NCBI GenBank assembly: GCA_020247545.1
Contig: JADCIX010000047.1
Span: forward strand, 1-49,198
From: Rhodocyclaceae bacterium
GTDB lineage: Bacteria > Pseudomonadota > Gammaproteobacteria > Burkholderiales > Usitatibacteraceae
Reading direction: 5' to 3'
DNA length: 49,198 nt
Shown: positions 4,236 through 49,198 of the stretch, one piece after another
How the letters are laid out: the number at the start of each line of letters is the position of its first letter
Numbering within the stretch: the first letter of the stretch is position 1
Notes under the pieces: generated by a model
Database searches by the model: none
What the model saw: only the letters and a program-made list of their open reading frames with translations
Told to the model about the DNA's origin: nothing
Position numbers and translations under genes: made by a program

Positions 4236-7200
4236 TTAGAACTCGTAACGGAAAGTGACTTGCATCTGCCACTGCGATTCGAGACGCACTTGACGCGTGG
4301 TGAAATCGGCAACACCGGCACTACGCAATGCGTAGATATAGCGGCCTTGGGCGTCGATACCAACATAGTTGACAAGCGCGCGGGTTGACGGGAAAGCGAT
4401 CTCGTCGATACGGCCCCACTTTTTGTTCAACAAATTACCCACGTTGAAAATATCGAGGCTGACTACAGACTTATGGTCCTTTACGAATCCTGGAAGCTCT
4501 TGGGTGACACGCATGTCGACGGTATTAGTCCAAGGGTTGAACGTGTCGTTGCGGGCAACCACACCACCGCGGGTCTTGATGCCATTGGCACTGACCAGCT
4601 CCCAGAACTTGTTCTCGTTGGTCTTATCGGTTGCGGTATCACCAAGGAATACCACTTCCCCCGAGCCCGGGCCTTTAGGGATGTAAAGCAAGTCATTCGT
4701 CACGCCGTCGCCATTGATGTCATTACCGTAGATCCAACTATAAGGTTTACCGCGACGACCTTCAGCAAAGAACCCAACCCGCGTCTTGTACTTGCCAATG
4801 AATGCGCGTTCCCAAATCAGCGAGCCGTTGAAGCGATCTTTGATCAGGTAGTTGGAGTTCGATGCAACGTTTTCGTTGGGGTTGAACACCGAGCGACCAT
4901 TCCAGTTGGAGTTTGCTACCGACGAGGTGAGCGGGCTCACTTCTTTGGCAGCGGTGTAGGTGTAGGCCAACGCCCATGACCAACCCTGCATCATCGGACG
5001 CGAAATAGAAACGGTCGCTTGATTGCCGCCGCCGTCCTTAGTTTTTGAAGTCAAGGTGACGTTGTTGAAGTTGGGGTTGTTCAATGCGCGCGTACGCTGA
5101 TCGTTACAGATGCCCGTGCCACCAACCGTCGAACCACCCGATGTCCAGCAAGCAGGGTTATAGCCCGCCGCTGTCCAGAACATTTGACGACCGTCCGGGC
5201 CGATACGGGTCGGCACACCCAAATTCAAATGCTGGTAGTAGAGGCCGACATTGGTCTTGGTGTAGATGTACTCAGCACTAGCAACCATGCCCCACCACGG
5301 CAGCTGATGTTCAAAGGCCAGGTTGGCTTTCCAAACCGAAGGCTGGCCGAGCCCCTTCTCGATGAAGTCAACGTTCGATGCCGGAATGGCACCAGAAAAT
5401 GACGTCGGCTGCTGGGAAGAGTCCGGGTTAAACAAGCCGCCAGCAGATGGACAAGCTGAGAATCCAGCAATGCCGCAACCAATGACAGCGGTTGCCGTTC
5501 CCGTGTTTGAATATGGATTAGACAGCCAAACGTTTGCCGCAGCCCCCTGGAAAAGACCAAATCCTCCACGCACTTGCATTGGGCGCTTGGAATCGAAGGT
5601 GTAGTTGAAACCAAACCGAGGCTGAAACAGGCTCTCGCCGTCGATGGTGACAGTGTTATCGAGGCCAAAACCGCCAGAAGCGCGAGTGGTGCCCGACCCG
5701 ACAACAGTCGGCGCAGCCGCAGCGGCGTTGTACGCTGGCTTATCGGCAATCTTCGGCACGTCAATTCGTGCCCCGATCATCAAGGTCAGGTTATTGTTAA
5801 CCGCCCAGGTATCCTGAAAGAAGGCACCCAAGTTTTGCAGCTTCCAAACGGCAACCCCATCGTCTAGCTTCTTACCCGCTCTTGGCACCTGAACCGAATA
5901 CGACGATGGACGCCCTAGGCGGAAGTTCTCAAGCACAGCCGCCTCTATGGCTGCCGCAGTGGCAGTGCCACAGTTGATGGTGCCAAACGAGTAGGTATAT
6001 GTCGCACTGCTGTTTTGGCAGCTAAAGGTGTAGTTACCTTTAGTATCCTGCAGGAACGCGTTGTACACCTTGTTGTCGCTCAAGTCGCCGCCAAACTTCA
6101 ATTCGTGCTCTTTGAGTATCCAAGTACCGCCGAAGTACGCGTCGGTTGTCTTGGTGCCGAGAACGTTGGTATGGCGGCTGCGTTCTGTACCCGCAAACAA
6201 AGTACGAGTGCCAGTCGCCGCGACCGCACCGGCAGGCAATGCACCCGTAAACGAGAACGCCATTTGCGGCAAAGTCGTTGGGCTAACGGGTACCGAATCA
6301 TAATTTCGCTTGGAAATCTTGAACTCGGTTGAGAAGTTGTCGGTCCAGTCAGAGAACACTTGCGCGACAGCCGTCTCGATCTCCTTGACCTGAGAGTAGT
6401 TGTTAGAACTGTACGCAAGTTGCGTGATTGAGTAGTTCTGGAAGATCGGCTCGCTCTGTTCTGTCTTGTTGTACCGAACATTTGCACGATGACGGTCGTT
6501 GATGTTCCAGTCAAGCTTTGCCGTTAAATCCTTGACTGTCAGCATGCCGCTAGGCGTATCCGCATTGCCCAAATCAACGCGATATGTGCTCAAAGCAATA
6601 GACTGAAGTCCGCTAATTGCGGTCGGCGTTATGCCAACGTTAGTCAAAGAGCTGCCGATGGGGCCAAATGCCGGGCTTGCCTTGGTGCTCGCGAGTTCTT
6701 CATATGATACGAAGAAAAACAGTTTGTCCTTGATAATCGGGCCACCAAGCGTGAAGCCCTTGGTATCTTCTGAAAATGGCAAGACCGGCGTGTAAGTATT
6801 GGTCGAGCGATTGTAACGGTCACCCACCATCTTTTGATCGCGGTAAACCTTGTACACACTACCCTTAAAGTCATTAGTTCCCGACTTCGTAATGGCATTT
6901 ATATTGACGCCGGTGTAGCCCTTCTGCGTGACGTCGTAGTTCGAGACATTGACCTGGACCGACTGTATTGCATCAATTGAGATCGGCTGCTTCTGGGTCG
7001 GGAGGTTGTTGGACTCAAGGCCAAATGTGTCGTTGGTCGTTACGCCGTCAATCGTAATTGAGTTGTAGCGGCTGTTTTGACCGCCAAGCGAAATCTCGCC
7101 GCGCTCTTTGTCGGTTTGCGATAAACGCGGATCATTGCGCGCGTAGTCTTGCAGGTTACGGTTGATTGAGCCAAAAGCGTCAAGTTCTGCGCGGCTGATA

Positions 7201-7631
7201 TTGCTCCCTGCGCCCATCGCTGTCTTGCTGAACGCGTCGGCAACGGCGCTCGCCGCAACTTCAATAGTTTCTACTTTTGGTTTTTGCTCGCCGAGTTTTG
7301 CATCGAGTACCGCCGTCTCGGCCAGCGTAAGGAACACATTGTTTCTGGTCTCCGTCTTACCGTCTTTGGTAATCGTTATGGTATATGGCCCCCCGGTACG
7401 AAGGCCGCGCGCCGAGTAACGACCCTCTGCATCAGTTACAACATTGGTCACCGAGCCGGAATCTACGTGAACAATCTTCACCGCAGCACCAGCGACTGAC
7501 TTACCGTCCACTGCCGTAATGCGCCCCGCCAGTGCAGAGGTAGTGTTTTGCGCATATACCGTAGCACTGCCCACCGCAATCGCCACACACAGCGCGATCT
7601 TTGAGAGCTGCAACCGATTTCGATTAGTCAT
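4236..7631 (-). CDS. Oar-like TonB-dependent outer-membrane receptor with carboxypeptidase-regulatory N-domain
   Basis: 1131 residues. Residues 1-28 form a signal peptide ending at VYAQ. Residues ~33-120 look like a carboxypeptidase regulatory-like beta domain (SALAGRITAVDGKSVAGAAV, then VVTDAEGRYSARGL). A plug domain follows (~150-260, with ITIDGVTTND), then a long beta barrel ending in RYEF, the aromatic C-terminus recognised by BAM. Architecture matches Oar-type receptors, thought to import peptides or polymers; the substrate here is unknown. A single-gene unit: it has its own terminator and no transport partner nearby. ATG at 7631 has an AGGA about 8 nt upstream. Confidence 0.88.
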   Translation of the reverse strand: MTNRNRLQLSKIALCVAIAVGSATVYAQNTTSALAGRITAVDGKSVAGAAVKIVHVDSGSVTNVVTDAEGRYSARGLRTGGPYTITITKDGKTETRNNVFLTLAETAVLDAKLGEQKPKVETIEVAASAVADAFSKTAMGAGSNISRAELDAFGSINRNLQDYARNDPRLSQTDKERGEISLGGQNSRYNSITIDGVTTNDTFGLESNNLPTQKQPISIDAIQSVQVNVSNYDVTQKGYTGVNINAITKSGTNDFKGSVYKVYRDQKMVGDRYNRSTNTYTPVLPFSEDTKGFTLGGPIIKDKLFFFVSYEELASTKASPAFGPIGSSLTNVGITPTAISGLQSIALSTYRVDLGNADTPSGMLTVKDLTAKLDWNINDRHRANVRYNKTEQSEPIFQNYSITQLAYSSNNYSQVKEIETAVAQVFSDWTDNFSTEFKISKRNYDSVPVSPTTLPQMAFSFTGALPAGAVAATGTRTLFAGTERSRHTNVLGTKTTDAYFGGTWILKEHELKFGGDLSDNKVYNAFLQDTKGNYTFSCQNSSATYTYSFGTINCGTATAAAIEAAVLENFRLGRPSSYSVQVPRAGKKLDDGVAVWKLQNLGAFFQDTWAVNNNLTLMIGARIDVPKIADKPAYNAAAAAPTVVGSGTTRASGGFGLDNTVTIDGESLFQPRFGFNYTFDSKRPMQVRGGFGLFQGAAANVWLSNPYSNTGTATAVIGCGIAGFSACPSAGGLFNPDSSQQPTSFSGAIPASNVDFIEKGLGQPSVWKANLAFEHQLPWWGMVASAEYIYTKTNVGLYYQHLNLGVPTRIGPDGRQMFWTAAGYNPACWTSGGSTVGGTGICNDQRTRALNNPNFNNVTLTSKTKDGGGNQATVSISRPMMQGWSWALAYTYTAAKEVSPLTSSVANSNWNGRSVFNPNENVASNSNYLIKDRFNGSLIWERAFIGKYKTRVGFFAEGRRGKPYSWIYGNDINGDGVTNDLLYIPKGPGSGEVVFLGDTATDKTNENKFWELVSANGIKTRGGVVARNDTFNPWTNTVDMRVTQELPGFVKDHKSVVSLDIFNVGNLLNKKWGRIDEIAFPSTRALVNYVGIDAQGRYIYALRSAGVADFTTRQVRLESQWQMQVTFRYEF

Positions 7632-8040
7632 TTATTGATCCTAGTAAGAAATGAAAACAGTGAATTCGTTAACCTTGCGTACGCAGCAGCGGCTGACATC
7701 GCCAGCCACGATGGCTCACTAAACATTCTTTATGCTCAGGCACAACGCAGTGGCCGGCTGATGCTGCCCCGCCGCAGTCCCCTTTTTGCAACTGCAACCA
7801 AGTCTCATCGAGACGAGTTATCCAACTCGATAGGCAGGCGTACGTTCCGCTCACAATTACAACGACGAATTATGACGGATTCATGACGTCCTTGGAATCA
7901 ATAGGTTACATGCGATAACATCCAAAATTACTTATGGTTTGCACACAACCACTTCTGCCCTGATATTGAGAATTTACATGAAGAACGCGCTGCTTCATCG
8001 CGGTCGCGAAGCCCGGCATTTGTTGTGCCCGCACAACACG
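7632..8040. other. 409-bp non-coding stretch upstream of the receptor gene
   Basis: No convincing gene on either strand. It should carry the receptor promoter and a long 5' leader. A CATAAT hexamer on the minus strand near 7870 is a weak -10 candidate without a matching -35. A perfect palindrome lies at 8021-8038 beside the inverted-repeat element. Short ORFs here lack ribosome-binding sites. Confidence 0.5.
8021..8038. promoter_or_regulatory. Perfect 18-bp palindrome
   Basis: TGTTGTGC-CC-GCACAACA: 8-bp arms around two bases. The centre is too short for a stable RNA hairpin loop and no T-run follows, so a protein-binding site is more likely than a terminator. It ends 2 bp before the repeat element at 8041. 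Confidence 0.4.
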
Positions 8041-8227
8041 CTAGCCTGAACATTTCATGCGGGCGCGTTCGACAGCGGGCGAGTAGGTGAACAGGCGAGC
8101 GATTTTTTGCCTGACCGACCACAGCATCGCGGGCTAGGCTTCGGCAGCAGGGCGGAACATTGCCGTCCAATCGCCCACAGGCAACGTCCTTCTAAGCAAC
8201 CGGCGACCCATAAAATATTCAGGCTAG
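8041..8227. mobile_element. MITE-like inverted-repeat element, copy 1 (187 bp)
   Basis: Begins CTAGCCTGAACATTTCATG and ends, inverted, CTAGCCTGAATATTTTATG. The terminal inverted repeats are about 25 bp and imperfect. CTAG at each end could be a 4-bp target duplication (IS5-group elements duplicate YTAR) or the tip of the repeat. No transposase fits inside. The right part and the internal segment GCCTGACCGANCACAGCA match copy 2 at 23527-23784. The right-hand CTAG contains the TAG stop codon of the 5'-nucleotidase gene. Confidence 0.75.
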
Positions 8228-10086
8228 TTCAATCGTACGATCCGCGACCCTAGAGCGCTTGGCTGGTAAGGAGAATTTGCCCCAAGATACTCTACGAGAG
8301 CGTCAAGATCCAAAACGCTCACTTGACGATCGCGGCCATCACGGAAAACGGTGAAGCCCTCGGCACCTGCCGCAACAAAGCTATTCGCCACCACCCGATA
8401 TTCAAGATCCAAACGAATCGGCGCGCCATTGAGTTTTATCGAGCCGGGTACCACGCGGCTGCCGATCGGTTTTGCAGCGTCCCACACATAACTGAATCCC
8501 TTCGACACGCCCATAATTCGGCTAAATCGACCCTCGGCCTCGGCAGTCCATTGCTGTTCGAGAACACTCTTGATTTCGGCCCCCGTCAGGTTCATCACCA
8601 CTAGGTCGTTTTGGAAGGGTTGCGTCTTAAACAGTGCGCCATACGAAACTCCGCCCCTTTCGTCGGGGATGATGGGGGCCCGCAAACTTCCACGATTGTT
8701 AAACGCAATCACTGCCCCGCCACGGTCCGGGCTCGCGGTTCCAGACAAGTGTGCATCAGCGATCAAATTTCCCAGCGTCGATTCACCAGCAGGCGTTGAG
8801 AGCGCACTCATCTCCCTGGCAACATTTGCGACGATGCGCTTTTCAAGCGGCTCGCTAAGCGCTTTGTACCGCTCGACCAAGACCGAAAGCTCCGCCGCCT
8901 TCGGGCCATCGGGCTTTACTACAACGTTTCGTGCCGATGTACGGCTCAGTTTGCCAGTCGCACGATCAAGATCAATATCAATTTCGGTCAGCAACGTGCC
9001 GTAGCTTCCCGCGCTCGTCACGAGCTTGCCAGCCACATCACAGATGTAATAACGATGCGTATGCCCAGTAATCACCACGCCGACCTCCGGTGCTAGGCGC
9101 GATGCGATGTCTTTGGCTGGCCCCTTGAAGTCGGTACAGTCGTTGATACCTCCAGACTGGTCGCCGCCCTCGTGTACCACAACGACGACGGCGTTAATGC
9201 CTTTTGCCCTCAGCGTCGGCAGAAGCTGGTTAACCGTTTCCACTTCATCAAAAAAGCGCAGCCCCGCTGTTCCACTAGGGCGCACAAGCTGAGGTGTATT
9301 GCGTAATGTCATGCCAATAAAGGCGACCTTAACTCCGTCAAACTCCTTGACGCCGTAAGACGGAAACAATGTCTTCTCATCAGACTCGGCTCTGACATTC
9401 GCCGCCAAGAAGGGGAACTTTGCCCCCATGTAGGCAGGCCTACCCTTGCAATCGGGCTGACCCGTCGCAGCGCTCTTCTCACACCCGCCCGCCTGGAGCC
9501 GCTTCAAATGCTCTACGCCGTAATCGAACTCGTGGTTTCCCACCGCATGAAAGTCAACCCCGATGAGATTCATCGCTTCAATGGTGGGCTCGTCTTTGAA
9601 CAACGCCGACATCAGCGGCGTCGCCCCGACCAGGTCTCCTGCGGACAAAACGGCGTTCAGTGGATTCTGCAGCTTAAGTTTATTAACCAAAGCGGCAAAT
9701 TGCTCTACCCCGCCGGCACTTTCGAAGCGAATCCCGGTCGGCTGCGATGCATCGGGCACCGGCACCCGCAAGTTCGGGATTTGCAAGTTGCCATGAAAGT
9801 CATTAAAGGCGATCAGCTTGACCGTAACGACCGGCGCGGCAACTGCCGCTGGCGGTGGAGGCGTGGTGGTGGTGCAACCTGAAAAAAACAGCACGCCGAG
9901 CGCAATCATCGCCGACGCGTAGCGCCTCTGAATCAGCCCGAAACCACCAGTTGCATGAACAACCAACGCGCAAGCGTGAATTCTGAATTGCATAAAGAAT
10001 TGCCAAATCATCTGAACGGAATCCAGCACTTTACTCCGAGTATTATCTACGTTGATGCGGGTAGCGGATCGTCTCTGCTCGCGCAT
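8224..10086 (-). CDS. 5'-nucleotidase / UshA-like metallophosphoesterase lipoprotein
   Basis: Longest frame 620 residues. Hydrolyses nucleotides (and possibly UDP-sugars) outside the inner membrane. Calcineurin-type motifs in order: NDFHGN, AGDLVG, GNHEFDYG, VVVVHEGGD and GHTHRYY; the C-terminal 5'-nucleotidase domain follows (NNRGSLRAPI, SYGALFKTQPFQNDL). A lipobox LFFSGC puts the lipidated Cys at residue 71 of this frame, far too deep for the outermost ATG. The real start is probably at 9993 or 9909, which also leaves room for the divergent nupC promoter; no start has a good ribosome-binding site. The stop codon TAG lies within the inverted-repeat element. Divergent from nupC, implying release and uptake of nucleosides. 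Confidence 0.88.
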   Translation of the reverse strand: MREQRRSATRINVDNTRSKVLDSVQMIWQFFMQFRIHACALVVHATGGFGLIQRRYASAMIALGVLFFSGCTTTTPPPPAAVAAPVVTVKLIAFNDFHGNLQIPNLRVPVPDASQPTGIRFESAGGVEQFAALVNKLKLQNPLNAVLSAGDLVGATPLMSALFKDEPTIEAMNLIGVDFHAVGNHEFDYGVEHLKRLQAGGCEKSAATGQPDCKGRPAYMGAKFPFLAANVRAESDEKTLFPSYGVKEFDGVKVAFIGMTLRNTPQLVRPSGTAGLRFFDEVETVNQLLPTLRAKGINAVVVVVHEGGDQSGGINDCTDFKGPAKDIASRLAPEVGVVITGHTHRYYICDVAGKLVTSAGSYGTLLTEIDIDLDRATGKLSRTSARNVVVKPDGPKAAELSVLVERYKALSEPLEKRIVANVAREMSALSTPAGESTLGNLIADAHLSGTASPDRGGAVIAFNNRGSLRAPIIPDERGGVSYGALFKTQPFQNDLVVMNLTGAEIKSVLEQQWTAEAEGRFSRIMGVSKGFSYVWDAAKPIGSRVVPGSIKLNGAPIRLDLEYRVVANSFVAAGAEGFTVFRDGRDRQVSVLDLDALVEYLGANSPYQPSALGSRIVRLN

Positions 10087-10109
10087 TATTCACATTAGGG
10101 GCACACACC

Positions 10110-11354
10110 ATGCTGATTCTGCAGAGCCTGATGGGCTTTTTCGTTCTCTACGCCTTTGCTTGGGCAATTTCGGAGAAACGGCACGCCGTGCAGTGGCGCA
10201 CGGTGATCGGCGCGATCATCTTACAGATCATTATGTTTGTGCTGCTGTTCAAGTTTCCCTACTTTAAGGAAGTGGCGGCGGTGCTGAATAACACCCTCAA
10301 TGGCATCGCTGATGCAACCCGCGAAGGCACCAAGTTTGTCTTCGGCCACATCGGCGGCGGAGATTTGCCCTACAAAGTTGAGGACGGCAAAAGTCCATTT
10401 ATCCTGGCAACGCAGGCATTACCGTTAGTAATTGTGGTGTCTGCGCTGTCATCGATACTCTTCTACTGGAAAATCTTGCCGTTGATCGTCAACATTTTTT
10501 CATGGGTACTGAAAAAAACTATCGGTGTGGGCGGCGCGATTGGCGTCTCCACCGCCGCGAACATTTTTCTCGGTACGGTAGAAGCACCACTATTTATCAA
10601 ACCCTACATCGCCAAGCTCACGCGCGGTGAGTTGTTCATCACCATGACGGCGGGCATGGCCGGTATCGCCGGCACTGTCATGGTGCTCTACGGCATTATT
10701 CTTAAAGCGTCAGTTCCCGACGCCATTGGCCACATTCTCATCGTCTCGTTTATCTCCGCACCGGCGGCCATCGCCTTCTCTGCCCTGATGGTGCCACACG
10801 AAGGCCAGGTCACCGACGGCATGATCGCCACCGGTGCGCCGGTGCAGTCGACGATGGACGCGGTGACACAAGGCACGGTAGAAGGTGTGTCGATTTTCAT
10901 AAACATTGTCGCCATGCTGCTGGTGCTGACCGCACTGATCGCAATCATCAATCAGTTGTTCGGACTTCTGCCTGGCATCAGTGGCAAACCAATCACGCTG
11001 CAAAGTCTGTTCGGCGCTGTCATGGCACCAATTGTGTGGCTTACCGGAGTGCCTTGGTCTGAGGCACAGACGGCCGGCGCGTTGATGGGCACCAAAACAG
11101 TCTTGAATGAATTCATCGCGTATCTCGATATGGTGAAGCTGTCACCAAGCGAGTTATCCGAGCGTAGCCGAGTCATCATGACGTACTCCCTATGTGGCTT
11201 TGCCAACTTTGCGTCACTCGGCATCATGATCGGCGGTATGGGCACCATGTGCCCGGAGCGCCGTCCCGAGATAATTAATCTCGGCTACAAGTGCCTCGTA
11301 TCAGGTACCCTTGCGACGCTGTCGTGTGGTGCCCTGGTAGGCATTTTTTACTAG
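10110..11354 (+). CDS. nupC: Concentrative nucleoside transporter (NupC family)
   Basis: 414 residues, highly hydrophobic, many membrane segments. Length and sequence match the CNT family, which imports nucleosides with H+ or Na+. Recognisable are the gate region (GVGGAIGVSTAANIFLGTVE) and the NEFIAYLDM segment of the C-terminal transport domain, plus the CGFANFASLGIM segment. ATG at 10110 has AGGGG about 8 nt upstream. Its divergent neighbour is a secreted 5'-nucleotidase that would supply its substrate; a co-directional M17 aminopeptidase starts 30 nt after its stop. Confidence 0.92.
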   Translation: MLILQSLMGFFVLYAFAWAISEKRHAVQWRTVIGAIILQIIMFVLLFKFPYFKEVAAVLNNTLNGIADATREGTKFVFGHIGGGDLPYKVEDGKSPFILATQALPLVIVVSALSSILFYWKILPLIVNIFSWVLKKTIGVGGAIGVSTAANIFLGTVEAPLFIKPYIAKLTRGELFITMTAGMAGIAGTVMVLYGIILKASVPDAIGHILIVSFISAPAAIAFSALMVPHEGQVTDGMIATGAPVQSTMDAVTQGTVEGVSIFINIVAMLLVLTALIAIINQLFGLLPGISGKPITLQSLFGAVMAPIVWLTGVPWSEAQTAGALMGTKTVLNEFIAYLDMVKLSPSELSERSRVIMTYSLCGFANFASLGIMIGGMGTMCPERRPEIINLGYKCLVSGTLATLSCGALVGIFY

Positions 11355-45470: not shown

Positions 45471-45484
45471 CTGATCCAGATCAA
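45471..45484 (+). promoter_or_regulatory. FNR/ANR-like site
   Basis: CTGATCCAGATCAA matches the FNR consensus TTGAT-N4-ATCAA with one mismatch. It lies 47 nt upstream of the GTG of the TPR/HD-GYP gene and next to an inverted repeat. Confidence 0.45.
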
Positions 45485-45485
45485 G

Positions 45486-45514
45486 ATTTAACAAAAATCC
45501 ATGTTTTGTTAAAT
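45486..45514. promoter_or_regulatory. Perfect 11-bp inverted repeat upstream of the TPR/HD-GYP gene
   Basis: ATTTAACAAAA (45486-45496), seven bases, TTTTGTTAAAT (45504-45514). It ends 2 nt before the AGAGGA ribosome-binding site (45517-45522). As DNA it is a good operator; as RNA it could form a hairpin next to the ribosome-binding site. Confidence 0.6.
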
Positions 45515-45530
45515 TCAGAGGAATACAATT

Positions 45531-47342
45531 GTGCTTCTTGAAAAACTAAGAAGCGAACTGAGTGAACCTTGTGGCATGGCGACACTGACTGAAGATTTAA
45601 CCAAGCTTGACCGGGAAATGGCTGTGGAGGCTGCGGATAATGTCACCCGTCCGGCGTCTGTACGGGATGCCGTCTTGGCTGTTGCCACACGCCTGCGCGA
45701 ACATCGCGAGGCGGACGATCTGAACGCAATCGGTGCCCTCGTGTTAGGCATTTGCCCGAAGCTTTTCGCCCAGGGCAAATCCATCGAAGCGCTGCCACTA
45801 GCCTTGGCGCTTCACGAACGCACCAAGACCATGGAGGAAAGCGCACTCGCAGCACGCGCGGCGGGGACATGCGGGATTTTGTTTGCCGATAGCGGCGATT
45901 TTTCCTCAAGCCTCGACTACCAATCATTTGCACTCAAGCTTGGCGAGAGGGCCGGTGACCCGGTTGCGCTGAGCCGAGCCTGGGGCAATATCGGTCTTGC
46001 GTTCTATGCGTCCGGTAACACCCGGCAGGCGATGTCTTCCTTCCACCGCAGCATTGATCACATTGACCACATCCCTGGGCCTCAGTACGCACGCTTCCTG
46101 TCGCACATGAATCTCGCCATCTCCCACCAGACATTGCGCGAGGCCGATCTGGGGCTCTACCACGCCCATCTTGCGCTGGAGGAACTCAAGCCCGGCGCAA
46201 TTGCGGTTGAAGCCCTTTCCAAGGCGGTGCTTTTTCGGGTGCTCGCCAGGCTGTGTTTGGAAACTGGTCGAGAGGCCGATGCAAAGGCTCACTTACGAGC
46301 CATCGCCGATATCGCCGAACAGCATCCCAGCATACGCATGCAGGTCGTGTTGGAAACGTCGATTGCGGCCTTTGAATTAGCCACTGGCAATACCGATATC
46401 GCGCTGACCCGACTCGAGAAAGCGTTATCCGCGTCCCGCGTCGCGCAGATGCCTCTCAAGGACACACTCGCCAACGTGGTGCGAGCAGAAGCCCAGGCAG
46501 GGGCGGCTGGCCGGGCGATGATTCGCCTTCGCGAATTGTCCGAATTGGCTCACAGCAACAATGTGACCAACGCAAAGAACCATCGCCAGCTTCGCCTCTG
46601 GCGTCCGACAGATGAAACGCACCTTCCAAGCTTTGATGGCTTTGTTGCCGCACAGCTACACTGCCAATTGAAGTCCCCATCCGCGCCCGAAGACTGGAAT
46701 GTGTTGTCCAGACTGGCAATTGGAACATCGCTACAGATTGACGGCAATGGTGCACACGGCCTGCGTGTGGCCGCACTCACCGAGATGCTGGCACAGGCAA
46801 TGGGATTTACCCCGATCGATGCGATTGAGATGGGCTGTGCTGCACAGTTGCACGATATCGGCACGGCTTATGATCACCAAAACCTGCTCCCCGCGCACGC
46901 GGCGGCACACACCACCGAAATGCCGAGCACCCGCGACCATTGTGAATCTGGCTGGCAAGTGCTGGCCGACGACGTGCACCCCAGGCTGTTGATGGCGCGG
47001 GAGATTGCGCGCTATCACCACAGCCATTGGGACGGCAGCGGTTACCCCTCTGGCGTGGCCAGTCAAGCAATCCCAGTCCACGCGCGAATTTGTGCCGTGG
47101 CAGATGCATTTGATGCGCTGCTGTGCGAAGCCAAGCCCGGTTCGGCGTATTCCATGCTCGAGGCGTTGGAGGATTTGCGCAGCATGTCAGGAAGCCGGCT
47201 TGAGCCGCGTTTGGTGGATAGTTTTGTCACCGCCCTCCAAGATGAAGCACGCATCGAAGGCATCGACGTTGCCGCAACCAATGGCCTGGCAAATCTACAG
47301 CAATTCGTCGAATCTTTTTCACACAGCAGGAACTACACATGA
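45531..47342 (+). CDS. TPR-like helical repeat protein with C-terminal HD-GYP domain
   Basis: 603 residues from GTG at 45531 with AGAGGA 8 nt upstream. Residues ~60-345 are tandem helical pairs that look like TPRs (for example SRAWGNIGLAFYASGNTRQA at 148-167). Residues ~405-570 are HD-GYP, a c-di-GMP phosphodiesterase fold: H409, H441-D442 (HDIGT), H470, H496-H497, GYP motif DGSGYPSG (501-508) and D525. The usual HDIGK lysine is Thr445 and HHE is HHS. No receiver or membrane segment, so a cytoplasmic sensor. First gene of an operon; its stop overlaps the next ATG by 4 nt. Ligand and activity unknown. Confidence 0.8.
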   Translation: MLLEKLRSELSEPCGMATLTEDLTKLDREMAVEAADNVTRPASVRDAVLAVATRLREHREADDLNAIGALVLGICPKLFAQGKSIEALPLALALHERTKTMEESALAARAAGTCGILFADSGDFSSSLDYQSFALKLGERAGDPVALSRAWGNIGLAFYASGNTRQAMSSFHRSIDHIDHIPGPQYARFLSHMNLAISHQTLREADLGLYHAHLALEELKPGAIAVEALSKAVLFRVLARLCLETGREADAKAHLRAIADIAEQHPSIRMQVVLETSIAAFELATGNTDIALTRLEKALSASRVAQMPLKDTLANVVRAEAQAGAAGRAMIRLRELSELAHSNNVTNAKNHRQLRLWRPTDETHLPSFDGFVAAQLHCQLKSPSAPEDWNVLSRLAIGTSLQIDGNGAHGLRVAALTEMLAQAMGFTPIDAIEMGCAAQLHDIGTAYDHQNLLPAHAAAHTTEMPSTRDHCESGWQVLADDVHPRLLMAREIARYHHSHWDGSGYPSGVASQAIPVHARICAVADAFDALLCEAKPGSAYSMLEALEDLRSMSGSRLEPRLVDSFVTALQDEARIEGIDVAATNGLANLQQFVESFSHSRNYT

Positions 47343-48310
47343 ACACACCGGAGAACAAAACCATACCGCCACTTTCCGATACCGACAGGAAGATGCTGGA
47401 GCTGTTGCTCAAAGGGGCATCGGGCCGCACCATCGCCCAACGTCTCGGCTACAAGGAGGGCACCACGCGGGTGTATTTGCACTCGCTCTACAAACGGATT
47501 GGTGTGAACAACAAAACCAGCGCGGTCACTTGGTATTTGGATACCCTCACCACCGACGAGACCCACACCGAGCGCGAGGCCGCCAGCCAAGCACAACGTA
47601 TCAAGTCATTTGGCGAGATGGCCGCGCGTCGCGGGTTACTCGAGAGCCTCGGCTTTATGGGTATTTTTCTAGGGCCGTACGGGCGCATGTGGGAAGTCAG
47701 CCAAAAACTCAAAGGCGGCCGTGCGCCGCAACTGAGCTCTTCCGATCTGCAACTCCGCGCCACTGCCCGCAGCCTGTGGGAATCGTTCCTCGCCGGGGAT
47801 TTCAGCCAGGGTAAACGACAATTTGACGCGGGGTTGCTGCCCAAGTTGTTTGTCGCATCACCGTCTGATGCGGTCACGTTGAGCATGATGCTGATATTGG
47901 GTGGCTATACATCAAGCGCCCGCAAAGCGATGTCCTCACTGCCGGCGCGAAAAGCCGGCAGCTTGGGCGTGACGGTCGACGAACTGCGCGCCCTGACCGC
48001 AGCGTCCGACGCAGTGGAAAAATCGAACGACAGCGCCATCCATGCCATTCACGACATGATTGACTCCGGCGCGGCAAGGCCAGTGTATCGCCACCTGCTC
48101 TTGGCGACACTGTTTCATCTGTATCGGATGCGCGGCGATACCGCACGTGCCTCGGCGGTTGCGGATGCAATTTGGGCGGAGGCCGAGAGCGCACGGGCGC
48201 ACCTCGAAGCTGCGGGTGATCGGGCGCTACCGCCGGATGTTTCACTGCCTGCACCGCCGACGGTAGCGCCTTATAAGCTGAGTGGTTATTTGGAGAGGCT
48301 GACCGCATAA
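47339..48310 (+). CDS. LuxR-type HTH regulator with N-terminal HTH and helical C-terminal domain
   Basis: 323 residues. Residues 12-68 form a LuxR/GerE-type HTH (LSDTDRKMLELLLKGASGRT, then IAQRLGYKEGTTRVYLHSLY, then KRIGVNNKTSA). In most LuxR proteins this domain is C-terminal; here it is first. Residues ~140-300 are helical and probably TPR-like (YRHLLLATLFHLYRMRGDTA), suitable for binding a peptide or protein. Overlaps the TPR/HD-GYP gene by 4 nt, so the two are co-translated. Probably a transcription factor for the operon and neighbours. Convergent with the small peptide gene. Confidence 0.75.
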   Translation: MNTPENKTIPPLSDTDRKMLELLLKGASGRTIAQRLGYKEGTTRVYLHSLYKRIGVNNKTSAVTWYLDTLTTDETHTEREAASQAQRIKSFGEMAARRGLLESLGFMGIFLGPYGRMWEVSQKLKGGRAPQLSSSDLQLRATARSLWESFLAGDFSQGKRQFDAGLLPKLFVASPSDAVTLSMMLILGGYTSSARKAMSSLPARKAGSLGVTVDELRALTAASDAVEKSNDSAIHAIHDMIDSGAARPVYRHLLLATLFHLYRMRGDTARASAVADAIWAEAESARAHLEAAGDRALPPDVSLPAPPTVAPYKLSGYLERLTA

Positions 48311-48335
48311 TCAAATGATGCGCCACCCCTTATGT

Positions 48336-48488
48336 TCACCAATATGGGCCGATCTCACCGCCGCCAATACCCTGCAGCTCCGCTTCGATGAGCACGACAA
48401 GCTGCTGCCGATCAACCGCTTCCTCTCCTGCCAGTTTGTTGTTGAGTTCTGAGCCAACAATAAAATCACGCGCGCCTTGAGTATTCAT
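48336..48488 (-). CDS. 50-residue peptide with double-glycine-type leader
   Basis: ATG at 48488, stop TGA at 48336. A GAGGA sits 6 nt upstream of the ATG. The product starts MNTQGARDF, is acidic and ends LIEAELQGIGGG-EIGPYW. LIEAELQGIGGG fits the double-glycine leader consensus LSxxELxxIxGG at every position but the Ser. Cleavage would release EIGPYW (or GEIGPYW). Such leaders are removed by C39-peptidase ABC exporters, none of which is in this window. Its 3' end is 25 nt from the end of the LuxR-type gene. Too short for most gene finders, so probably unannotated in relatives. The signal-peptide role is inference. Confidence 0.6.
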   Translation of the reverse strand: MNTQGARDFIVGSELNNKLAGEEAVDRQQLVVLIEAELQGIGGGEIGPYW

Positions 48489-48510
48489 TTTTTCCTCGCA
48501 ATAGATTGAG

Positions 48511-48542
48511 ATCAGTGTGGTGTGCCCGAAATGGACACTGAT
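48511..48542. promoter_or_regulatory. Inverted repeat upstream of the peptide gene
   Basis: ATCAGTGT (48511-48518) and ACACTGAT (48535-48542), perfect 8-bp arms 24 bp centre to centre, 23-54 nt upstream of the peptide ATG. Fits a dimeric regulator site or a leader hairpin. Confidence 0.45.
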
Positions 48543-48610
48543 ATTGTTTCAAATGTTATTGGTTTGATCACTCCACATATCTTTTGCATACTGATAGGTT
48601 TATCTTTTTC

Positions 48611-48625
48611 GGGTGGCTGATGGGG
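48611..48625. repeat. 15-nt fragment identical to the 3' end of tRNA-His
   Basis: GGGTGGCTGATGGGG matches 49062-49076, the 3' acceptor/T-arm end of tRNA-His. Shorter forms (GCTGATGGGG) recur at 48884 and 49168, each at the head of a repeat unit. Confidence 0.6.
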
Positions 48626-48651
48626 CCGCTCACGGTGCCTTTACATTCCGC

Positions 48652-48801
48652 ACCCCGCACCATTCGGCCTTCGGCTCGCGCTCACTTAATTCGCGCGACC
48701 TGCGCAAGTCCACCGGACTTGCTGGTCGAACCCACGCGGCTTCTCACCTCCATCAAACCACCCAAACAAAAAACCCGCACAGGGCGGGTTTTGTGTTTTG
48801 G
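48652..48801. repeat. 150-bp repeat, unit A, with REP-like palindrome and terminator hairpin
   Basis: Identical to 48913-49062 except one base (GAACCC versus GACCCC). Contains a palindrome at 48696-48728 (GCAAGTCC-ACC-GGACTTGC inside CGACC/GGTCG) and, at 48770-48792, the same hairpin that terminates tRNA-His. No tRNA precedes this copy, so its terminator appears orphaned. Confidence 0.85.
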
Positions 48802-48912
48802 CGACGAGACCCGCGGCTCCGATCATGCCTGCGCATGATTGGACGGCGACGAGTCTGAGCGCGATACCGCGCGCGAAGTGGGGGCTGATGGGGCTGCTCA
48901 TGCTGCGGTTAC

Positions 48913-49062
48913 ACCCCGCACCATTCGGCCTTCGGCTCGCGCTCACTTAATTCGCGCGACCTGCGCAAGTCCACCGGACTTGCTGGTCGACCCCACGCGG
49001 CTTCTCACCTCCATCAAACCACCCAAACAAAAAACCCGCACAGGGCGGGTTTTGTGTTTTGG
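48913..49062. repeat. 150-bp repeat, unit B, adjoining tRNA-His
   Basis: Second copy, 261 bp from unit A; ends inside the 3' end of tRNA-His. REP-like palindrome at 48957-48989. Carries the functional terminator of the tRNA. Confidence 0.85.
49024..49053 (-). terminator. Rho-independent terminator of tRNA-His
   Basis: Minus strand stem AAAACCCGC/GCGGGTTTT (arms 49045-49053 and 49031-49039), 5-base loop, then TTTTTTGTTTG, 6 nt past the CCA end. Confidence 0.9.
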
Positions 49063-49135
49063 GGTGGCTGATGGGGTTCGAACCCACGACAACTGGAATC
49101 ACAATCCAGGACTCTACCGCTGAGCTACAGCCACC
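49060..49135 (-). tRNA. tRNA-His (anticodon GTG)
   Basis: 76 nt on the minus strand starting with the extra 5' G typical of tRNA-His (GGTGGCTG), D-arm AGCTCAGCGGTAGAG, anticodon loop TTGTGAT with anticodon GTG, T-arm GTGGGTTCGAACCC and an encoded CCA. No clear promoter upstream before the window ends. Confidence 0.97.
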
Positions 49136-49167
49136 AAAGACTTCAAACAACAACATTCCACACGCAA

Positions 49168-49198
49168 GCTGATGGGGCTGCTCATGGTGCGGTTACAC
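49168..49198. repeat. Start of a third repeat unit, cut by the window edge
   Basis: GCTGATGGGGCTGCTCATGG and the following GTGCGGTTACAC match the head of unit B (48884-48914) with one difference. The tandem array or a further tRNA probably continues beyond the window. Confidence 0.6.

Follow-up and report, generated by a model that had tools for sequence, protein, structure and literature searches.

Gene content of the locus

The 49,198-nucleotide contig JADCIX010000047.1 of Rhodocyclaceae bacterium (assembly GCA_020247545.1), called the window here, carries at its end a candidate peptide-signalling locus. An earlier reading made from the DNA letters alone, referred to as the original prediction, had described three elements there, and all of them were present as described when the sequence was examined and searched with Pfam: a gene joining tetratricopeptide repeats (TPR) to an HD-GYP domain, an overlapping gene (ATGA) for a regulator with a LuxR-type helix-turn-helix (HTH), and, convergent to the latter, a 50-codon open reading frame (ORF) with a double-glycine (GG) motif (Table 1). 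In the 603-aa protein, Pfam recognised HD_5 (E-value 1.8e-23) and, slightly below the curated cut-off, TPR_12 (2.3e-6). The 323-aa protein is a regulator of the LuxR/GerE type, with the GerE HTH at residues 11-65 and no curated Pfam match for the remainder; VpsT was the top PDB match for the HTH of its family. The precursor ends in ...LVVLIEAELQGIGGG followed by EIGPYW, i.e. GIGGG before the predicted cut and EIGPYW after it. Below, G, C and L numbers designate genomes, contigs and loci, respectively, G000 being the genome of the window.

Table 1 Features of the candidate peptide-signalling locus, with positions in the window.
Feature	Position	Strand	Evidence and remarks
Candidate operator: perfect inverted repeat ATTTAACAAAA-N7-TTTTGTTAAAT, 11-bp arms	45486..45514		16 bp upstream of the GTG
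TPR-HD-GYP protein, 603 aa, GTG start	45531..47342	+	Pfam, alignment, tree; candidate peptide receptor with altered HD-GYP motif (HDIGT, HHS)
323-aa regulator	47339..48310	+	Pfam GerE 1.5e-9: N-terminal GerE/LuxR-type HTH, then a C-terminal part with no curated Pfam match
Peptide precursor gene, 50 codons and stop	48336..48488	-	Convergent to HTH gene, 25 bp from its stop
Predicted mature peptide EIGPYW, codons 45-50	48339..48356	-	Sequence; predicted cut
Leader, codons 1-44, ending GGG	48357..48488	-	Sequence; I41, L38, L33, L30 at -4, -7, -12, -15 for a cut after G44
Ribosome-binding site GCGAGGAAAAA	48489..48499	-	Sequence; immediately upstream of the peptide-gene ATG
Putative promoter/operator element ACCAATAACATTTGAAACAATA	48542..48563	-	Motif score 24.5, next best in window 11.1; common to HTH-linked peptide genes

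Conservation of the mini-ORF beside the HTH operon

Among 28 genomes of the same family, 17 hold the HTH protein, in 18 full-length copies. Seventeen of these copies were counted as operon-type, a count that includes a contig starting within the HTH gene (G018) and a receptor gene split over two frames (G003). A mini-ORF was found near 16 of the 17, 25-250 bp beyond the end of the HTH gene or HTH match, in 15 cases convergent to the HTH gene and in one on the same strand; two loci (L043 and L045) carry two mini-ORFs each. Homologous operons without a small ORF had been named in the original prediction as the finding that would speak against it, and just one of the 17 operon-type copies is of this kind. 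A strict pattern (hydrophobic leader, [GAS]GG, tail of 3-14 residues) matched once in the 49-kb window and ten times in 4.24 Mb of Markov sequence, and the window ORF ranked first of 1372 frames (E 4.6e-4) with a peptide profile built without it; it still ranked first, at E 0.02, once its nearest relative (L033) was also removed from the profile. On these pattern counts and this first rank, a chance ORF was rejected, and, judged from sequence, the 50-codon ORF is a real gene.

Across the 28 genomes, the peptide profile gave 18 matches with E < 1e-10, all of them inside HTH operons. The leaders have features of the type LxxWELxLxGGG in common and the tails are mostly [DE]xxPxW, the peptides of the window and of L033 being the most divergent. 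The latter locus (G003) has its TPR-HD-GYP gene in two frames (6648-7712 and 7511-8407) beside an intact HTH gene and mini-ORF, which may reflect a pseudogene or a sequencing error. Genome G008 holds, besides its operon, an HTH copy cut by the contig end and the eighteenth, distant copy; 2.7 kb beyond the distant copy lies a GGG mini-ORF (L048, 13065-13181 in G008:C60), possibly of another subtype.

In a sample of 399 genomes of the order, 13 of those listed belong to the family of the window and 386 to others. None of these 386 gave a full-length match to the HTH protein and 31 matched the HTH alone, with at most five candidates scored per genome. Matches to the HTH protein are mostly betaproteobacterial (UKL13-2, GR16-43, and metagenome-assembled genomes of Burkholderiales and Rhodocyclaceae), one being labelled Lysobacter and one only Pseudomonadota; UKL13-2 and GR16-43 are complete genomes, and both contain the operon. 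Two other assignments were tried and rejected. The ComC family of NCBIfam matched with E 0.0036, scoring 16.9 bits where the cut-off is 50, and among 18 members it matched one at E up to 0.1; PADLOC gave weak matches only for a defence system (best E 0.0032).

Recurrence of the pairing at other TPR-HD-GYP loci

Weak matches to the peptide profile led to 16 loci (L138-L153) with a peptidase-containing ATP-binding cassette transporter (PCAT); the peptides of these loci were selected in this way, the TPR-HD-GYP genes were not. Fifteen of the 16 have one to five strict mini-ORFs, beside genes for HlyD, the PCAT and homologous TPR-HD-GYP proteins, and the peptide of L149, with GG and not GGG, was matched by a relaxed pattern only. 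A whole or partial TPR-HD-GYP gene is present in 14 of the 16 loci; in the remaining two, L143 and L153, the peptide lies at a contig end. The full-length PCAT-linked TPR-HD-GYP proteins have 582-648 aa, and one is 27% identical to that of the window over 568 aa. Within a locus the tails are alike and the leaders differ, e.g. CGDVIWG, GGDIHWG and GGDIVWG in L138 or IGDTII and IGNTII in L150. Further PCAT loci have no strict peptide (L154-L157, L201-L207 and L052).

Other loci (L188-L195 and L196-L200, of which L199 and L200 start within the gene) were chosen by receptor homology alone. Scoring at most three candidates per genome, the receptor profile found full-length relatives in five genomes of two other families of the order, in eight copies, with partial matches (G220:C14 and G011:C88) left outside the count. 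A strict GGG mini-ORF lies no more than about 0.7 kb from each of the eight, and four have a PCAT as well; in one of these loci (L188 of G064, 9590-10401), six tandem near-identical 38-codon GGG mini-ORFs lie between the PCAT and the TPR-HD-GYP gene. Altogether there were 68 strict matches in 849 kb, 65 of them in HTH-, receptor- or PCAT-linked places, where about two would be expected in 0.85 Mb; none occurred in 14 other HD-GYP, eight binding-protein and 15 other GerE loci (130 kb; less than one expected by chance). In a class-wide sample, none of 369 genomes had a relative at 1e-85 (at most three candidates per genome), a threshold that overlooks copies of the window type, that of the own genome included. 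The pairing of a mini-ORF with a TPR-HD-GYP gene is recurrent, and the linkage of peptide and receptor proposed originally for one locus extends to TPR-HD-GYP loci of three families.

Leader type and predicted export

Substrates of PCATs have hydrophobic residues at positions -4, -7, -12 and -15 relative to the cut (PMC7018657, in its section 4). The leader in the window fits this rule with I, L, L and L for a cut after the third glycine (G44). Among the PCAT/HD-GYP-linked peptides (37 of 47 strict peptides, copies excluded), these positions are hydrophobic in 100, 100, 100 and 81%, and among the 18 HTH-linked peptides in 83, 72, 72 and 72%. Tails have 6-7 residues in 35 of the 37 PCAT/HD-GYP-linked peptides, and 6-8 residues in 15 and 12 in three of the 18 HTH-linked ones. 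By these residues, the leader belongs to the PCAT-type double-glycine class.

The own genome encodes an HlyD-PCAT pair (G000:C37; C39, ABC membrane and ABC ATPase domains) with tpiA-secG-nuoA after it. Between the PCAT and tpiA, G001 and G006 carry a mini-ORF and a TPR-HD-GYP gene. In G000, G003 and G008 these two are gone from the PCAT-tpiA site and the transporter is retained (92-96% identical to that of the own genome), which for G000 and G003 leaves the operon peptide as the only strong match to the peptide profile. Export of the peptide by the PCAT of its own genome would be our expectation. Twelve SBP_bac_5 oligopeptide-binding proteins, six of them on C49 (three) and C1 (three), make import of a peptide possible. 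Also encoded in the own genome, on contig C4, are a radical SAM protein and a C39 peptidase of 154 aa that stands alone (L053, 6090-6665 and 9658-10122), perhaps another peptide-modifying cluster.

Candidate receptor branch of the window

In a tree, the 15 HTH-linked TPR-HD-GYP proteins form one clade (100/100) on a long branch. Active HD-GYP phosphodiesterases have the motif HDxxK ... HHE ... GYP. Neither the HDIGK Lys nor the HHE Glu is kept in any of the 15 HTH-linked proteins, versus both in 19 of 19 aligned PCAT-linked rows; the aligned His residues are retained, with HE instead of HD in L047. The window protein, in which GYP is kept next to HDIGT and HHS, does not have the full motif. 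Turnover of cyclic di-GMP (c-di-GMP) by the window copy, as first proposed, is unsupported because its whole clade (15 of 15) is without the Lys and Glu that the PCAT-linked proteins keep. The branch of the window departs from the rest jointly in receptor clade, catalytic motif, tail type and gene partner.

The TPR profile of the family matches RapF at 4.8e-12. With a TPR-only profile (RapF 7.6e-4), positions 86-176 align with RapF 198-287, and the invariant second Asn of WNNIG would correspond to about RapF residue 227, as read from the aligned ranges, designed TPRs also having Asn there. Residue 227 of RapF is given as the conserved RNPP anchor in PMC3601957.

Promoter and candidate operator elements

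Gibbs sampling of 150 bp upstream of 14 HTH-linked mini-ORFs (near-copies L038 and L042 excluded) gave the motif.caAtTAACAt.TGtAATAcTa, which lies 45-63 bp from the ATG in 13 of the 14 and at 87 bp in L047. Its information content was 16.7 bits versus 10.1-10.4 in six shuffled sets, these having fewer sampling rounds. The core of the element is the sole perfect match in the own 3.54-Mb genome, with one more site at one mismatch; the reversed control pattern had two sites at one mismatch. Before the PCAT-linked peptides the element was absent (best score 10.6 of 22), and an operator common to these peptides too was rejected on that score. The inverted repeat before the TPR-HD-GYP gene occurs once in the window and in none of 100 shuffles, and it has barely more than TAACA in common with the peptide element. 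A single operator for both genes was likewise rejected, as the peptide-promoter motif scored -4.8 to 8.3 upstream of 12 TPR-HD-GYP genes. The HTH protein may bind the inverted repeat, and it may bind the peptide element. Upstream of the first PCAT-linked mini-ORF of L146, L148, L151, L152 and L139 there are TGTGA-N6-TCACA palindromes (e.g. TGTGAACTAATTCACA). These resemble CRP-type operators and may point to a CRP-like regulator.

Evolution of the peptide and flanking region

Between G024 and G022, the peptide gene has a ratio of nonsynonymous to synonymous substitution rates (dN/dS) of 1.51, with 16 base changes and four of six core tail residues changed; the comparison genes gave 0.08 (HTH) and 0.23 (HD-GYP), with dS of 0.07-0.11. 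Between G018 and G027, the peptide dN/dS was 0.38 and the tail was identical. Such values would fit a shifting specificity but a weak constraint as well, two pairs being few. The codon-level conservation that the original prediction had asked for is seen in the kept reading frame and leader motif, and is not seen in the dN/dS of the first pair.

The locus is preceded in the window by a minus-strand smc-like gene, named by sequence alone, and a plus-strand QueF-II gene. Positions 48616-49198 contain direct repeats that are imperfect (a 151-bp unit present twice, the copies 99% identical and 261 bp apart, and a 31-bp unit present three times); beside them is a minus-strand tRNA-His (49060-49134).

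Comparison with known peptide systems

As in the RRNPP(A) systems of Bacillota (Rap-Phr, PlcR-PapR, NprR and Rgg-SHP), a short propeptide gene adjoins the gene of a cytosolic TPR protein: this was found at 16 of 17 operon-type copies and at eight of eight outside the family, the exceptions being L032 and L196-L198. The TPR family also matches RapF, including the invariant Asn near residue 227 read from aligned ranges. The present module differs in being proteobacterial, in its HD-GYP output, in its separate GerE-type HTH protein and in the predicted PCAT export. Receptors here have about 600 aa versus the 250-500 given for RRNPP_detector, and their TPR is fused to HD-GYP and not to an HTH or Rap three-helix bundle. 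Since output domain and size are unlike those of RRNPP proteins, the module was not assigned to RRNPP; it would work like such a system and yet fall outside that family.

The pneumococcal rtg locus (RtgR/S and the PCAT RtgAB) has a PCAT, several GG peptides and a peptide-responsive regulator, according to PMC7018657. It differs in being Gram-positive, with an Rgg regulator and no HD-GYP. RaxX we take to be a GG peptide. Cyanobacterial GG-motif biofilm proteins with HetC, RaxX/RaxABC and class II microcins are examples of GG motifs or PCATs in Gram-negatives, partly in signalling, and the excerpts of PMC4997328, PMC4216712, PMC10233263 and PMC10986499 name no TPR-HD-GYP. In Vibrio vulnificus, a c-di-GMP enzyme is controlled by TPR domains in the two-gene operon RcbAB; this enzyme is a diguanylate cyclase and not an HD-GYP protein, the partner is a TPR protein, and the available portion of PMC12282931 mentions no peptide signal.

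Proposed mechanism and alternatives

We consider it probable, if not strongly so, that the locus is a peptide-signalling module in which a PCAT exports a short peptide that, once taken up again, is recognised by the TPR-HD-GYP protein. The 50-aa precursor would be cut after GGG into a peptide of about six residues (EIGPYW), which would leave through a PCAT and its HlyD partner, whose genes lie at another place in the genome. Oligopeptide permeases would bring the peptide back into the cell, where it would bind to the TPR-HD-GYP protein at the TPR domain. For the family at large, binding would switch a c-di-GMP phosphodiesterase; in the branch of the window, the receptor is more likely to have the co-encoded LuxR-type regulator as its partner or target, and this regulator would drive the peptide gene via the conserved promoter element in a feedback. 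Export by this PCAT, import, binding and output are steps that we infer.

Several observations weigh against this mechanism. Operon L032 of G008 is the sole operon-type copy without a strict mini-ORF, its sequence diverging at the 3' end of the HTH gene, and three divergent receptors of the family (L196-L198) have no strict mini-ORF either. Just 72-83% of the HTH-linked peptides keep the hydrophobic leader positions in register. The PCAT of the own genome does not adjoin the peptide gene, and C39 domains or PCATs occur in 27 of the 28 family genomes, whether the operon is present or not. G008 retains a near-identical PCAT without any profile-matching peptide, and because of this the retained transporters of G000 and G003 are only suggestive of export of the operon peptide. 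LGN, kinesin light chain and designed TPRs outscore RapF against the TPR profile. TPR repeats, which the original prediction had also seen in the HTH protein, were not borne out: hhalign of the HTH family with the TPR-HD-GYP family gave a probability of 7%, and a TPR fold for the C-terminal part was rejected. The original prediction was supported in part: its core idea, a short processed peptide paired with a TPR receptor in a Gram-negative bacterium, was strengthened considerably (16 of 17 operons, three families).

One alternative, which we regard as unlikely, is that the exported peptides act outside the cell (like microcins or bacteriocins, or on a different organism) and that the role of the TPR-HD-GYP and HTH proteins is confined to controlling their production. 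Class II microcins have a long antimicrobial core and an immunity gene, and the core in the window has about six residues (immunity genes were not searched for). GG leaders with PCATs usually belong to bacteriocins (PMC7018657, section 4) and linkage to a peptide gene is common for regulators too, but most tails are short (35 of 37 PCAT/HD-GYP-linked ones with 6-7 residues, 15 of 18 HTH-linked ones with 6-8). Another explanation, which we hold to be rather improbable, is that the TPR domain binds the precursor or leader inside the producer, so that the TPR-HD-GYP protein gauges the peptide still to be exported and adjusts its export or expression; the exported tail would then have another role or none. 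The stronger conservation of leaders than of tails across loci, and the linkage of peptide, receptor and often PCAT, would agree with this; tandem copies, however, keep the tail and vary the leader, and the tail type tracks the receptor clade. A hitchhiking or chance ORF beside a conserved operon is very improbable and already largely refuted, for although short ORFs are cheap and L032 and L196-L198 are without one, the linkage recurs in three families with differing neighbours and holds 65 of 68 strict matches where about two are expected in 0.85 Mb.

The peptide-signalling module remains the reading that we prefer. An earlier screen of Gram-negative genomes for GG-motif peptides has reportedly been published. 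Among the matches listed from openly licensed PubMed Central texts, no report joining HD-GYP, TPR and double-glycine peptides was found, and for Gram-negative bacteria a peptide signalling system of this kind seems to be undescribed. Proteobacterial quorum sensing is usually described in terms of enzyme-made small molecules, and peptide signals are regarded as a trait of Bacillota (PMC10075063). We see even chances that a Gram-negative quorum sensing extends across Burkholderiales, in which ribosomal pheromones of mostly 6-8 residues, matured and exported by a dedicated PCAT, would act on cytosolic TPR-HD-GYP proteins and directly change c-di-GMP, and from which the branch of the window would depart by an incomplete phosphodiesterase motif, a LuxR-type partner and the gain of a self-driven peptide promoter. 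If true, the pairing of a short GG peptide with a TPR-HD-GYP protein would be a Gram-negative peptide code wired directly to c-di-GMP.

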